Below, in pieces: positions 3,336-13,539 of a stretch of DNA of 13,539 bases (position 1 is its first letter; the number at the start of each line of letters is the position of its first letter). Both the position numbers and the translations under genes were made by a program. The stretch is from Parcubacteria group bacterium (GTDB lineage: Bacteria; Patescibacteriota; Minisyncoccia; UBA6257; JAAZHW01): positions 1 to 13,539 of the forward strand of contig JAAZHW010000073.1 in the NCBI GenBank assembly GCA_012510515.1, given 5' to 3'. The notes under the pieces are model-generated. The model ran no database searches and had not been told where the DNA came from. It saw nothing but the letters and a program-made list of their open reading frames with translations.

Positions 3336-4151
3336 TTAATTAATAGCATCAGCAATAATATCAATATGATAAAAATCAACAATGTTTAAATCAGGAAAAC
3401 TATATTGCCAAACATAACTAAAAGTTTTGTTATCATAAGCGGCTAAATTAGCTGTTTTTGTTTTGGCGGCATTTATAATTTCACCGGTTTTAGAGTAAAG
3501 AATAATAACAATTTCTATTTCGGAAAAATCTTTGTTGGTATTGTTTTTTATTTGAGCAGTTAATTCAAGAAAGCCGGCTTCTTGAGGCGTCATCATTCTT
3601 AATTGTTTGTTGGGAAGAGAAAATAATTTATCAGTTGATAAATTACTATAAAACCAATCTTTTTGATCATAATTAAATTTTATTTCAACACGGTTAATTT
3701 TTTCCGCGGGAATAGGAATTTTTTGCAAAAGAAGATATTTATTAGAAAATGGCAAAATAAAATTTTTATCAGAAATAGTTTTTAATTCTTGGCCAAATGA
3801 ATCGTATAGTGTTGCTGTATATTCAAACCAAACGCCGTATTCAGCATTACTATTCTTTATATTTATTAAAATCTGGCTATTATTTTGATTTTCTTTTAAG
3901 ACTTTATTGAATACCACTTCAATCGGGGTAGCATATTTAATACCGCAAGCTAGACAAGGTCCGCCACAATCAATTCCTTGTTCATTGCCGTTTTTTATTC
4001 CATCGATGCAAGTTGGCGCGGGTTTAATAAAAAAAATTCTTATTAAAACAATTAAAAGAATAATCAAAATAGGAATAGAAATAATTACTATTTTTTTTCT
4101 TTGGCGAATTTTTTCTAATTTCATTATTTGTTGAGAAAATTTATCTTGCAT
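3336..4151 (-). CDS. Membrane-anchored protein with Cys-rich DCGG motif, function unknown
   Basis: I do not recognise a function for this 271-residue protein. It has a short basic cytoplasmic head (about 1-20, several Lys/Arg), one membrane segment at about 21-42, then a compact motif CIDGIKNGNEQGIDCGGPC followed by LAC, with cysteines at 48, 62, 66 and 69. The rest (about 70-271) is rich in alternating hydrophobic residues with two beta-looking stretches (about 75-165 and 185-271), like repeated Ig-like or FxLYD-type extracytoplasmic domains. Similar C.DG..NG.E..DCGG.C..C segments occur in surface proteins of many bacteria, as I recall them; no search was done. It lies 20 nt after mnmA and 9 nt before rodA, so an envelope role is plausible but inferred. 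M10 is an alternative start. Confidence 0.85.
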   Translation of the reverse strand: MQDKFSQQIMKLEKIRQRKKIVIISIPILIILLIVLIRIFFIKPAPTCIDGIKNGNEQGIDCGGPCLACGIKYATPIEVVFNKVLKENQNNSQILINIKNSNAEYGVWFEYTATLYDSFGQELKTISDKNFILPFSNKYLLLQKIPIPAEKINRVEIKFNYDQKDWFYSNLSTDKLFSLPNKQLRMMTPQEAGFLELTAQIKNNTNKDFSEIEIVIILYSKTGEIINAAKTKTANLAAYDNKTFSYVWQYSFPDLNIVDFYHIDIIADAIN

Positions 4152-7305: not shown

Positions 7306-7402
7306 GTCATTCTGAGCGTTAGCGAAGAATCCCATCCACAGTAGTGATTGTTGATTATTTCTAAAATCCGAGGGATCCTTCGGGCTTCGCCCTCAGGATG
7401 AC
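7306..7402. repeat. Palindromic element copy 2 (97 bp)
   Basis: Same organisation as copy 1 with GTCATTCTGAG as left arm (one G-T mismatch or wobble to the right arm). The right-side hairpin is GGGC-TTC-GCCC, different in sequence from copy 1 but still self-complementary. The central stem CAGTA-GTGAT-TGTTG is kept by G-T wobbles. Confidence 0.85.
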
Positions 7403-7414
7403 ATCGGTGAGAGC

Positions 7415-7507
7415 GTCATTCTGAGCGTCAGCGAAGAATCCCACGCACAGCAGTGATTGCTGATTATTGCTAAAAGCCAAGGGATCCTTCACTACGTTCA
7501 GGATGAC
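7415..7507. repeat. Palindromic element copy 3 (93 bp), degenerate right side
   Basis: Left arm GTCATTCTGAGCGTCAGCGAAG and central CAGCA-GTGAT-TGCTG stem are intact. The right side CACTACGTTCAGGATGAC has lost the small hairpin seen in copies 1 and 2, and four bases. It lacks its own leader, being joined directly to the spacer after copy 2. Confidence 0.8.
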
Positions 7508-7540
7508 ATTAAAAAACAGCAGTGATAGTTGTGTATTCCT

Positions 7541-7546
7541 TATAAT
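7541..7546 (+). promoter_or_regulatory. -10 box upstream of rpsF (P1)
   Basis: A perfect TATAAT lies just right of the repeat array and about 50 nt before the rpsF ATG. The hexamer 17 nt upstream (AGCAGT) is a poor -35, so it is a candidate only. Confidence 0.35.
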
Positions 7547-7559
7547 AACATGCAAGTAT

Positions 7560-8938: not shown

Positions 8939-10279
8939 ATGAAACAAAATAATAAATTTATCTTAGTTATTGTAATTAGTATCTTAATTGGCAGTAGTTT
9001 TGGTTTTTTAATTTCTCAAAAAATAGCTTATTCTTCTGAAGGTAGAGGAGAAAATCAAAACAATTTATTAGCCAATCTTTCTCAAAACACAAACAATATT
9101 TTTAATTTTAAAAAATTAATTCCCCAATGGTTTAAAGAAGAGACAACCAGTCCAACGCCCACCGCTTCACCTACGCCAACAACTTATAGCTCAGAAGTAG
9201 AATACGAACAAAAAATAATTGATGTAGTAGAAAAATCTTCTAATGCGGTAGTGAGTATTATTATTACTAAAGACGTCCCAATTATTGAACAATATTACAC
9301 TAATCCATTTGAAGGAATACCACCAGAAATTCAACAATTTTTCTGGCCATTTTTTCGGTTTGAGTCGCCTCAAATACCTCAATATCGCCAAAAAGGAACA
9401 GAAAAACAAGAAGTGGGAGGTGGAACGGGTTTTATTGTTTCCTCTGATGGTTTAATTTTAACCAATAAACATGTGGTTAGCGACAAAGAAGCGGAATACA
9501 CAGTTTTTCTTAATAATGGAGAAAAATATCAGGCTAAAATTTTAGCTCAAGATCCTATAGATGATATTGCTTTAATTAAAATAGAAGCTAATAATTTACC
9601 AGTCCTTACTTTGGGCAATTCAGAAAGTATTAAGTTAGGACAAACAGTTATTGCGATTGGTAATGCTTTAGGTGAATTTCGCAATACTATTTCTTTAGGA
9701 GTTGTTTCCGGGTTAGCGCGTTCAGTCACTGCTACTGATTCTTCGGGAAATATTGAAACAATAGATAATGTTATTCAAACTGATGCGGCAATTAATTTTG
9801 GTAATTCGGGTGGGCCGTTAATTAATTTAAAAGGGGAGGTGATTGGTATAAATACCGCTATTGCTTCGGGAGCAGAAAATATTGGCTTTGCCATACCAAT
9901 TAATCGAGCTAAAAAAGATATTGAATCATATCAAAGTTTAGGAAAAATCGCTTCGCCATTTATAGGAATTCGTTACACAATTATTACGCCAACCCTAAAG
10001 GAACAGAAAAATTTACCAGTTGATTACGGCGCTTTAATTAGTAGCGGAAATAGCAATGAACCAGCAGTTTTATCTAATTCTCCGGCTGAAAAAGCGGGAC
10101 TAAAAGAAGGTGATATTATATTAGAATTTGATGGCAAAAAAATTAATTCAACCAATTCCATTTCTTCTTTAATAAAAAATTATAAGATAGGCGATAAGAT
10201 TAATTTAAAAGTTTTGCGCGGTCAAGAAGAATTGAATCTTGAATTAATCTTGACGGAACGGCCAGAAGATATAGAATAG
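8939..10279 (+). CDS. HtrA/DegP-like trypsin-family serine protease with PDZ domain
   Basis: HtrA proteases degrade or refold damaged proteins outside the cytoplasm. The 446-residue product has an N-terminal membrane anchor or signal (about 7-28), a low-complexity linker with SPTPTASPTPT at 71-81, the protease domain (about 95-325) and one PDZ domain (about 340-435, with SPAEKAGLKEGDIILEFDGKKI). The triad is visible: H178 in TNKHVV, D209 in DPIDDIALIKI, and S290 in GNSGGPL. The segment 110-156 (Pro, Phe and Gln rich, EQYYTNPFEGIPPEIQQFFWPFF) corresponds to the LA-loop region. One PDZ and a membrane anchor look like the DegS/HtrA class common in bacteria with small genomes. It stops at TAG, with TAA eight codons later. 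Its neighbour clpB is also a protein quality-control gene. Confidence 0.95.
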   Translation: MKQNNKFILVIVISILIGSSFGFLISQKIAYSSEGRGENQNNLLANLSQNTNNIFNFKKLIPQWFKEETTSPTPTASPTPTTYSSEVEYEQKIIDVVEKSSNAVVSIIITKDVPIIEQYYTNPFEGIPPEIQQFFWPFFRFESPQIPQYRQKGTEKQEVGGGTGFIVSSDGLILTNKHVVSDKEAEYTVFLNNGEKYQAKILAQDPIDDIALIKIEANNLPVLTLGNSESIKLGQTVIAIGNALGEFRNTISLGVVSGLARSVTATDSSGNIETIDNVIQTDAAINFGNSGGPLINLKGEVIGINTAIASGAENIGFAIPINRAKKDIESYQSLGKIASPFIGIRYTIITPTLKEQKNLPVDYGALISSGNSNEPAVLSNSPAEKAGLKEGDIILEFDGKKINSTNSISSLIKNYKIGDKINLKVLRGQEELNLELILTERPEDIE

Positions 10280-10466: not shown

Positions 10467-11195
10467 ATGCCATTTAATCGTTTTACATTAAAAGCTCAAG
10501 AAGCGCTTCAAGCAGCGCAAGATTTAGCTATTTCTAAAAATCAAGGCGAGTTAAAACCCGTCCATCTTTTGAATGCTTTAGTTATCCAAGAAGATGGGGT
10601 AATTGGAATGCTTTTGTCACGTTTAGGTATTAATTTGAAAGCTTTAATAAATAGCTTGGATTTAGAAATTGATCATTTACCAAAAGTTTTTGTTGTTAAT
10701 GCCAATGTCGGACAGCTTTATTTATCGCAAGAATTGATTCAATCTTTAGATCGGGCAGCTAAAGAAGCGGCAGAATTAAAAGACGAATATGTTTCTTGTG
10801 AACACCTGCTTTTGGGTTTAATTGAATCAGCAAAAGATTTAAAACCAATTTTTGATAAATTTAAAATTACACGAGAAGAAGTTTTAAAGGCCTTAAAAGA
10901 AATTCGCGGTAATCAACGAGTGGTAGATGAAACGCCTGAAACTAAATTTCAAGTTTTAGAAAAATACGCGATAAATTTAACTCAATTAGCTAGGGAACAA
11001 AAATTAGATCCAGTAATTGGTCGTGAAGAAGAGCTTTATCGAGTGATTCAAATTCTTTCTCGGCGAACAAAAAATAATCCTTTATTAATTGGTGAGCCGG
11101 GAGTAGGAAAAACCGCAATTGTTGAAGGATTAGCTCAAAAAATTGTAAATGGCGATGTGCCTGAAAGCTTAAAAAATAAAGAAGTAATTTCTTAG
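10467..11195 (+). CDS. clpB: ClpB N-terminal fragment (N domain and start of AAA1)
   Basis: This 242-residue open stretch holds the substrate-binding Clp N double repeat ([13 protein letters not shown] at 6-18; [13 protein letters not shown] at 106-118). It also has the linker EIRGNQRV at 145-152 and the first part of AAA1 through [21 protein letters not shown] and the Walker A loop. It stops 26 residues after Walker A, before the pore loop and Walker B, so alone it cannot form a working ATPase. The leader has no Shine-Dalgarno. If the TAG is real and not read through, this is the main product expected from the clpB promoter. Confidence 0.85.
11193..11195 (+). other. In-frame amber codon within clpB
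   Basis: The codons read TCT TAG GAT in the clpB frame, with homology continuing without shift on both sides. A single T-to-A change of a TTG Leu codon would produce it. Confidence 0.95.
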
Positions 11196-11207
11196 GATTT
11201 ACCCGGT

Positions 11208-13133
11208 ATGGTGGCAGGAACAAAATTTCGCGGTGAATTTGAAGACCGTTTAAAGGCTTTTATTAAAGAAATAAAAGCCGGAGAAGGAAAATACATTCTT
11301 TTTATTGATGAAATTCACACTATTGTTGGCGCGGGGGCGGCCGAAGGAGCAATTGATGCTTCTAATGTTCTAAAACCGCCTTTAGCTCGAGGCGAATTGC
11401 GAGCTATTGGCGCGACTACTTTAAGAGATTATCAGCGTTATATTGAAAAAGATCCGGCTTTAGAAAGACGTTTTCAATTAGTTTACGTAGAAGAGCCATC
11501 GACTGAAGAAGCGATTGCTATTTTGCGAGGATTAAAAGATAAATACGAAAGTTTTCATGGAATAAAAATTTCTGATAGCGCCTTAATGACCGCAGTGAAT
11601 CTTTCGGTTCGTTATATCCCGGATCGTTTTTTGCCAGATAAAGCCATTGATCTTATTGACGAAGCTGCTTCAGCGCGACGTTTGGAATTAGATAGTACTC
11701 CGCCGGAATTAGATGAGTTAAAAAGAAAAATTCTTAATTTAGAAATTGAAAAACAAGCATTAAAAGATGAAAAAAAATCAGCAATGCGTTTGAAAAAAAT
11801 CGAAGCTGATTTAAAAGAAGCCAAATCTGAATATGAAAAATTAAATAAAAAATGGAATGGTAATAAAAAAATAATTGATGAAATTCACGCTTTGCGAAAA
11901 AAATTAGAAGATTTAAAAAAGGAAAAGGAAATTGCTGAATTGCACGGCGATTTAGAAAAAGTAGCGCGATTAATGTACGGCGAAATTCCTCAATTAGAAA
12001 AAAAATTAGAAGAAATAGAAAAGAAAAATCAATTAAAAAAACAAAAATTAATAAAAGAAGAAATTAATGAAGAAGATATCGCCAAAGTGGTTTCTCAGTG
12101 GACAGGCATTCCTGTAAGCAAAATGCTTCAAAGCGAAATAGAAAAATTAAGATCAATAGAGAATGCTTTAAAACAACGCGTTGTTGGTCAAGATGAAGCA
12201 ATTAAGGCCGTGGCGAATGCTATTTTACGAGGCCGAGCTGGTTTAGCCGAAGAGGATAAGCCGATTGGTTCATTTATGTTTTTAGGGCCAACAGGTGTGG
12301 GTAAAACTGAATTAGCGCGAGCTTTAGCCGAATTTCTTTTTAATGATGAAAAGGCGATGGTGCGAATTGATATGAGTGAATATATGGAAAAACATACAGT
12401 AAGTCGTCTGATTGGTTCGCCACCCGGTTACATTGGCTATGAGGAAGGCGGTCAATTAACTGAAATTGTAAAACACCGTCCTTATAGTTTAATTTTGTTT
12501 GATGAAATTGAAAAAGCTCATCCTGATGTGTTTAATATTTTATTACAAATTTTAGACAACGGACGTTTAACTGATGCCAAGGGGCGGACAGTTAATTTTA
12601 AAAATACGGTTATTATTATGACTTCCAATGTGGGTAGTGAATATTTAGAACAAATGTCCACTTTAGGATTTAAAGCAACCAATGATGATGAAGAAAAACA
12701 AATTATTCAATCAAAAAATTTAAAAGAAAAAATTCGTTTAGCTCTAAAAGAACATTTTCGACCAGAATTTTTAAATCGAATTGATGAAATAATTATTTTC
12801 AATCCTTTAAATCAAAAAGAAATTGAAAAAATTGTGGAAATTCAGTTAGAGATAGTAAAAAAACGTTTATTACAAAAAGAAATTCAGTTGCAAATTGATG
12901 AGGTGGTAAAAAAATATTTGGCTAAAGAAGGTTTTAGTCCTGATTTTGGCGCTCGCGAATTAAAACGAGTAATTCAGAGAAATATTTTAGACCCACTGGC
13001 TTATAAAATTATTAACGGAGAGATTGGGGCAGCTGATATTGTAAAAATAACAGTGGAAAATAATAAACTTAATTTTATTATTGTTCATTTTCATTCGCGT
13101 AATTTTAAGATATCATCAGAAAAAACAAAATGA
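11208..13133 (+). CDS. clpB: ClpB C-terminal fragment (rest of AAA1, M domain, AAA2)
   Basis: The first in-frame ATG after the TAG lies 12 nt downstream and opens 641 residues. They begin with the first pore loop segment TKFRGEFED (Phe where Tyr is more usual). Then come AAA1 Walker B and the arginine-finger region [10 protein letters not shown], a Glu/Lys-rich coiled coil of about 115 residues with [30 protein letters not shown], and a complete AAA2 including the sensor MTSNVGSE and [15 protein letters not shown], formed partly by the TAG, lies 10 nt before the ATG and might allow re-initiation. No other gene here uses such a signal, so I think it accidental. The last 20 residues or so ([14 protein letters not shown]) extend past the usual family end. 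Confidence 0.85.
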
Positions 13134-13539
13134 GGAATTTTTTAATTACTTTTGTTCTGTCAGAAATTTATTATTTATCCGGATTTAGTAATTTTTGGTT
13201 TACGATTGTTTTGTTATACTCTATTTATTGGTTTATTAAATTTTTAAAAATAAAAAACGAATCTTTAGCAAAGAAAACATTTTTCTTTGCTTGGCCTTTA
13301 GTTTTTTTGTTTGGAGTTTTTTTGTTTTTTCCTAGTGTTTTTGTTTGGTCAACAGTATTGGAACAAGTTTATTTAGTTAGTGGTTTTATAATTTTTTATT
13401 TTCTGATTAGATTTTATAAAAAATCCTGTATTTATATTGATTTTTTTCGTTTTTTTTCGCCATTAATTATTTTACCATTTTCTTTTTTGTTTTTCCGTTC
13501 TAATCTCTTTTCCGATTTTTTTCTTAAGCAACTATTACT
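13130..13539 (+). CDS. Polytopic membrane protein, N-terminal part, function unknown
   Basis: An open frame begins at ATG 13130, overlapping the clpB TGA as ATGA, and runs off the window after 136 full codons. The visible sequence ([20 protein letters not shown]...) is extremely Phe/Leu/Ile rich, with about four or five membrane segments near 4-14, 21-40, 51-72, 79-96 and 108-123. Short basic loops (KIKNESLAKK, RFYKKS) mark cytoplasmic sides. Phe is nearly always TTT, fitting the AT bias of the window. I recognise no family motif. Overlap with clpB suggests translational coupling, so the clpB amber codon might affect it too. The true start could be later, but no better ATG is near. Confidence 0.7.
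   Translation, partial: MRNFLITFVLSEIYYLSGFSNFWFTIVLLYSIYWFIKFLKIKNESLAKKTFFFAWPLVFLFGVFLFFPSVFVWSTVLEQVYLVSGFIIFYFLIRFYKKSCIYIDFFRFFSPLIILPFSFLFFRSNLFSDFFLKQLL

Follow-up and report, generated by a model that had tools for sequence, protein, structure and literature searches.

The window analysed here, a stretch of 13,539 bases, is the entire contig C54 of a draft genome that totals 526,731 bases over 95 contigs, for which completeness is given as 98.88% and contamination as 3.44%; the names that homologous proteins bear suggest Patescibacteria. It contains a clpB frame (10467–13133, + strand) that ends in TGA and carries a single internal stop, the TAG of codon 243 (11193–11195, +). Upstream lies a gene for an HtrA/DegP-like serine protease (8939–10279, +), which ends in TAG, and downstream follows an ORF (13130–13537, +) whose ATG overlaps the clpB TGA and which runs off the contig end. 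The remaining window genes that we scanned look whole. Two further ORFs were seen on the minus strand. One of 271 aa (3336–4151) sits between rodA/ftsW-type and mnmA-type genes and gave no Pfam match at E 0.001; the other, of 64 aa (7361–7555), contains NVVKDP, ADAQND and AKPEGS in its translation, and may resemble a protein-like interspersed repeat known from between the genes of other bacteria.

The two parts of the interrupted gene

Translation and profile searches bear out what an earlier note on this DNA had claimed, namely that one in-frame TAG splits a clpB frame with family-like sequence on either side and no other lesion. The N-terminal part of 242 aa (10467–11195, +) holds Clp_N repeats and the Walker A motif of AAA1 and matches positions 1–234 of the 853-position NCBIfam profile TIGR03346, the ClpB equivalog. 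The remaining frame (11196–13133, +), with Walker B of AAA1, the lid, the middle region, AAA2 and the D2-small domain, matches positions 236–852. The two matches are colinear with one residue absent, and clpB therefore contains no second lesion. Across the frame, Pfam returned Clp_N, AAA_lid_9, AAA_2 and ClpB_D2-small, and in PDB both halves have ClpB chains as their top matches. The stretch that stays open 3′ of the TAG comprises 645 codons (TIGR03346 match, 7.3e-282).

TIGR03346 is the best NCBIfam family for both halves, which score 269.9 and 937.7 bits. An intact, near-identical database protein, P0001, covers positions 1–852 with 1224.7 bits, and none of the other NCBIfam families listed scores near TIGR03346 for it. 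The curated cut-off of 1232.1 bits is not reached by the halves, and P0001, too, falls 7.4 bits short. Contig C23 encodes, in an open frame of 843 codons, a second ClpB/ClpA-like AAA ATPase; a 582-aa piece of it scores 478.5 bits against TIGR03346, far below the cut-off.

Walker motifs are found at residues 209–216, 277–285, 607–614 and 675–683, so that the set is complete yet divided by the stop. The first of them, GEPGVGKT, lies 5′ of codon 243. We take residues 209–216 to be Walker A and residues 277–285 to be Walker B of AAA1, which places the break between these two motifs, again as the earlier note had it.

Residue 243 in near-identical proteins and relatives

At least 11 of the database proteins listed are 97% or more identical to the read-through frame; according to the table they come from 18 contigs, and all are 888 aa long. 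Every one of the 11 (97–100% identical to the window ClpB) carries a sense residue, Leu, at position 243. P0001 differs from the window ClpB at this residue only, while the other ten show 3 to 26 differences, residue 243 included. A source (jgi, ena or ncbi) is named for four of the 11 and for none of the other seven, P0001 among them. These source-less proteins may come from the same sample as the window, and at least some of the near-identical intact proteins originate outside any one unnamed source.

Among the best 120 database proteins listed, the column reads Leu in 119 cases and Met in one. A ClpB match above 1000 bits was obtained in 46 of the 60 relatives searched, the others being partial, split or weaker, and the nearest relative, G002, has a ClpB that is 82% identical and free of stops. 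The aligned ClpB sequences of relatives, 29 loci plus those of G028 and G047, have Leu at residue 243 in all 31 cases. Of the 29 loci, 25 contain no stop at all and four have one at query positions 872–876, that is, at the gene end; relatives for which no ClpB locus was returned, for example G011, G015 and G050, stand outside this alignment. The expectation that the lost residue is normally Leu is thus confirmed, and among the proteins listed the comparison with close relatives that had been suggested for this codon gave a sense residue throughout. We also considered a conserved split clpB gene and ruled it out, since no listed relative or near-identical protein has the break.

When each half was searched separately against a clustered protein database, no near-identical truncated protein appeared among the matches listed, and the top listed match of the N half was 82% identical. 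This absence of further truncated copies is weak and weighs less than the 11 intact proteins, because the database is clustered, the best 120 matches were listed, and the window's own clpB fragments were absent among them. A scan of genome contigs, from which the window's own and very near genomes may be omitted, kept 80 loci, the best of them 60% identical. A short-pattern scan of viral contigs, with the same possible omission of own and very near records, gave no match.

Stop codon usage, tRNAs and release factors

Stop usage was assessed in a sample of 116,917 bases that consisted of the window and 18 contigs chosen by number, not randomly. Simple ORF picking left 93 ORFs, of which 80 have a stop: 69 end in TAA, seven in TAG and four in TGA. 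For the six TAG-ended ORFs other than the clpB N half, the frame stays open for another 1, 1, 2, 5, 7 and 26 codons, and in one of these six, a YifB homologue, the TIGR00368 match reaches the last profile position. A long in-frame extension past TAG is found in clpB only, and because these 645 ClpB-matching codons stand against extensions of 1–26 codons, the open stretch behind the clpB stop is more than chance. By this sample, the genome seems to use TAG as an ordinary stop. A reassigned codon would lie inside many conserved genes and go unused as a stop, whereas TAG ends 7 of the 80 sampled ORFs; on this usage, and on the Leu of the near-identical proteins, we reject a reassignment of TAG to an amino acid.

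The search for a tRNA with anticodon CUA that the earlier note had proposed came back empty: none of the 35 Rfam tRNA matches carries it according to ARAGORN, in a set that is incomplete and misses tRNA-Asn. As an argument against reassignment, this CUA-less set is the weaker support. One tRNA-like match of 93 bases (G000:C23:5608-5700; L147:208-300, −), in which ARAGORN sees a 69-base tRNA-Lys(TTT), contains, close to the 5′ side, the palindrome CCTGCCTGCCGGCAGGCAGG; this may be a second tRNA-Lys gene that is broken and carries an insert.

The sample of the window and 18 contigs contains 13 pairs of neighbouring ORFs in one frame, and in seven of them, clpB included, no further stop lies in between. 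Four of the six other pairs are different known genes, one (in the window) is the rodA/ftsW-type gene and an ORF without family, and the last has a family match in neither half. A second split gene was not demonstrated in these 116,917 bases.

Neither an RF1 gene, nor any PCRF or RF-1 domain, was found in the assembly of the window genome, and the RF2 gene was likewise not found, at the given completeness of 98.88%. A bacterium with neither RF1 nor RF2 is not expected to be able to terminate its genes. Each of 30 relatives has at least one PCRF match, nine of them, G028 included, just one. In G002, one release factor gene follows lepA and precedes ftsE, and the other lies between a peptidase-like gene and rpsB; from sequence features we take the former to be RF2 and the latter RF1, and the names of the neighbouring genes are our own reading of the sequences. 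In the genome to which the window belongs, the homologue of ftsE begins no more than 40 bases into contig C50; lepA ends at most 290 bases from the C27 start, the side on which the next gene would be expected; the peptidase is truncated by the beginning of C33; and rpsB, going by the length of its locus, is close to the C7 end. Because the G002 neighbours sit at contig ends here, both release factor genes are probably hidden in assembly gaps, if the G002 gene order holds. The loss of RF1 was accordingly discarded as evidence for readthrough, RF2 being missing too and the G002 neighbours of both genes lying at contig ends.

Two relatives of one genus showed a different kind of interruption. The ClpB locus of G028 (C1:11181-13802; L148) has three in-frame TGA codons and that of G047 (C5:2-1636; L149) has one, at the position of the first G028 TGA; in-frame stops in both are TGA only. 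Two of the three G028 columns are Trp in 116 and in 120 of 120 listed homologues, while the third is Tyr, His, Phe or Leu and never Trp. G028 also has a tRNA with anticodon TCA (L215:98-172), which ARAGORN labels SeC. The single PCRF match of G028 is not telling, because nine of the 30 relatives, G028 included, have one only. The pattern fits a reading of TGA as Trp. Such a UGA-to-Trp reassignment is reported for the Patescibacteriota family JAKLIH01 of the order UBA6257, class Minisyncoccia (PMC13092985), and G028 and G047 probably belong to this published lineage; if they do, the window genome would fall in UBA6257 as well. For the window genome we saw no sign of a UGA-to-Trp reassignment. 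A further tRNA-like match in G028 (C1:34819-34896; L221:222-295), to which ARAGORN assigns the anticodon TTA, is weak (28.1 bits, below the Rfam cut-off) and probably not a working tRNA.

Origin and consequences of the stop codon

With a stop in one consensus and near-identical copies intact, the most likely origin is a recent mutation that is rare, or else an erroneous base. We hold with great confidence that the TAG is a private nonsense variant of one assembled consensus, be it an allele both rare and very recent or an erroneous base in the assembly: clpB is otherwise intact and ordinary, and the listed near-identical copies from the same Patescibacteria species are unbroken. Of the four options that the earlier note had left side by side, recent mutation, strain polymorphism and assembly or sequencing error survive, merged into one private change. 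Readthrough or suppression gained no support: TAG seems to serve as an ordinary stop, and the tRNA set, incomplete as it is, contains no CUA anticodon, although no release factor gene is present in the assembly either.

Between the two forms of a private variant the balance is about even. It is a toss-up whether the stop is a base error or a chimeric consensus call, in which case no cells with a broken clpB would exist. The fragmentation of the draft into 95 contigs speaks for this, as do P0001, an intact protein identical at every other residue, the wide occurrence of clpB among the relatives (46 of 60 above 1000 bits) and the lack of decay in the rest of the gene; against it, errors of this kind do not abound in the assembly, no second split gene having been demonstrated in the sample. 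The chance that one strain really carries a nonsense allele of very recent origin, hence a young clpB pseudogene, we put slightly under one half. The rest of the clpB sequence is clean, and the species does vary, given that ten near-identical listed proteins differ at 3 to 26 residues, but the truncated form occurs in no other copy among the matches listed.

Readthrough or suppression of the TAG, with production of full-length ClpB, appears very improbable. The frame is perfectly open 3′ of the stop, no RF1 gene was found, and a tRNA set that misses at least tRNA-Asn leaves room for a suppressor tRNA in a gap. RF2 is missing too, however, the G002 order places both release factor genes at contig ends, other genes end normally in TAG, the 35 tRNA matches of the incomplete set contain no CUA anticodon, and the TAG is not conserved, because near-identical proteins carry Leu at 243. 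We are just as sceptical of the more specific version, in which a gap-located suppressor tRNA or weak termination would make clpB a conditional readthrough gene that yields some full-length ClpB. Scarcely any probability at all is left for a working two-piece ClpB, in which the stop ends piece one and an ATG 12 bases beyond it (11208–11210, +), preceded by AGGA (11194–11197), starts piece two: the break falls inside AAA1, between Walker A and Walker B, and no listed relative shares it.

If the private variant is a real allele, translation would halt at codon 243 and the resulting fragment, 242 aa long, would keep the N domain and Walker A. The allele would then probably be null or near-null, because Walker B, the middle domain and AAA2 would all be missing from this fragment. 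As judged from the domain layout, we may fairly infer that neither half would be functional alone. More speculatively, a restart at the ATG of 11208 could give a 641-aa fragment and could sustain translation of the overlapping downstream ORF, but would not restore ClpB activity.

Private nonsense variants and base errors are known in draft or metagenome-assembled genomes. The clpB TAG is a common kind of feature, and a new mechanism is unneeded. It counsels caution: when an otherwise perfect conserved gene of a draft genome shows an in-frame stop, near-identical proteins should be consulted before anyone argues for recoding or gene loss. Should the stop be real and fixed in the strain, it would represent a naturally occurring clpB null, in a bacterium with a small genome whose order has clpB widely, and as such a modest point on the need for chaperones in Patescibacteria.

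Set beside known systems, the UGA-to-Trp reassignment of JAKLIH01 (PMC13092985) shares with the window genome the phylum, and the relatives G028 and G047, which would belong to the same order as the window genome, seem to show this reassignment; it differs in that it concerns TGA in a whole lineage, whereas here it is TAG in one codon. With the ClpB disaggregase (TIGR03346; PDB 1qvr_A, 6qs4_A) the window gene shares the family, both halves being colinear with it, and it differs by the one in-frame stop at codon 243. From the private variants and base errors of draft genomes we saw no difference, and the likeness extends to a single stop, an otherwise clean frame and intact conspecific copies.
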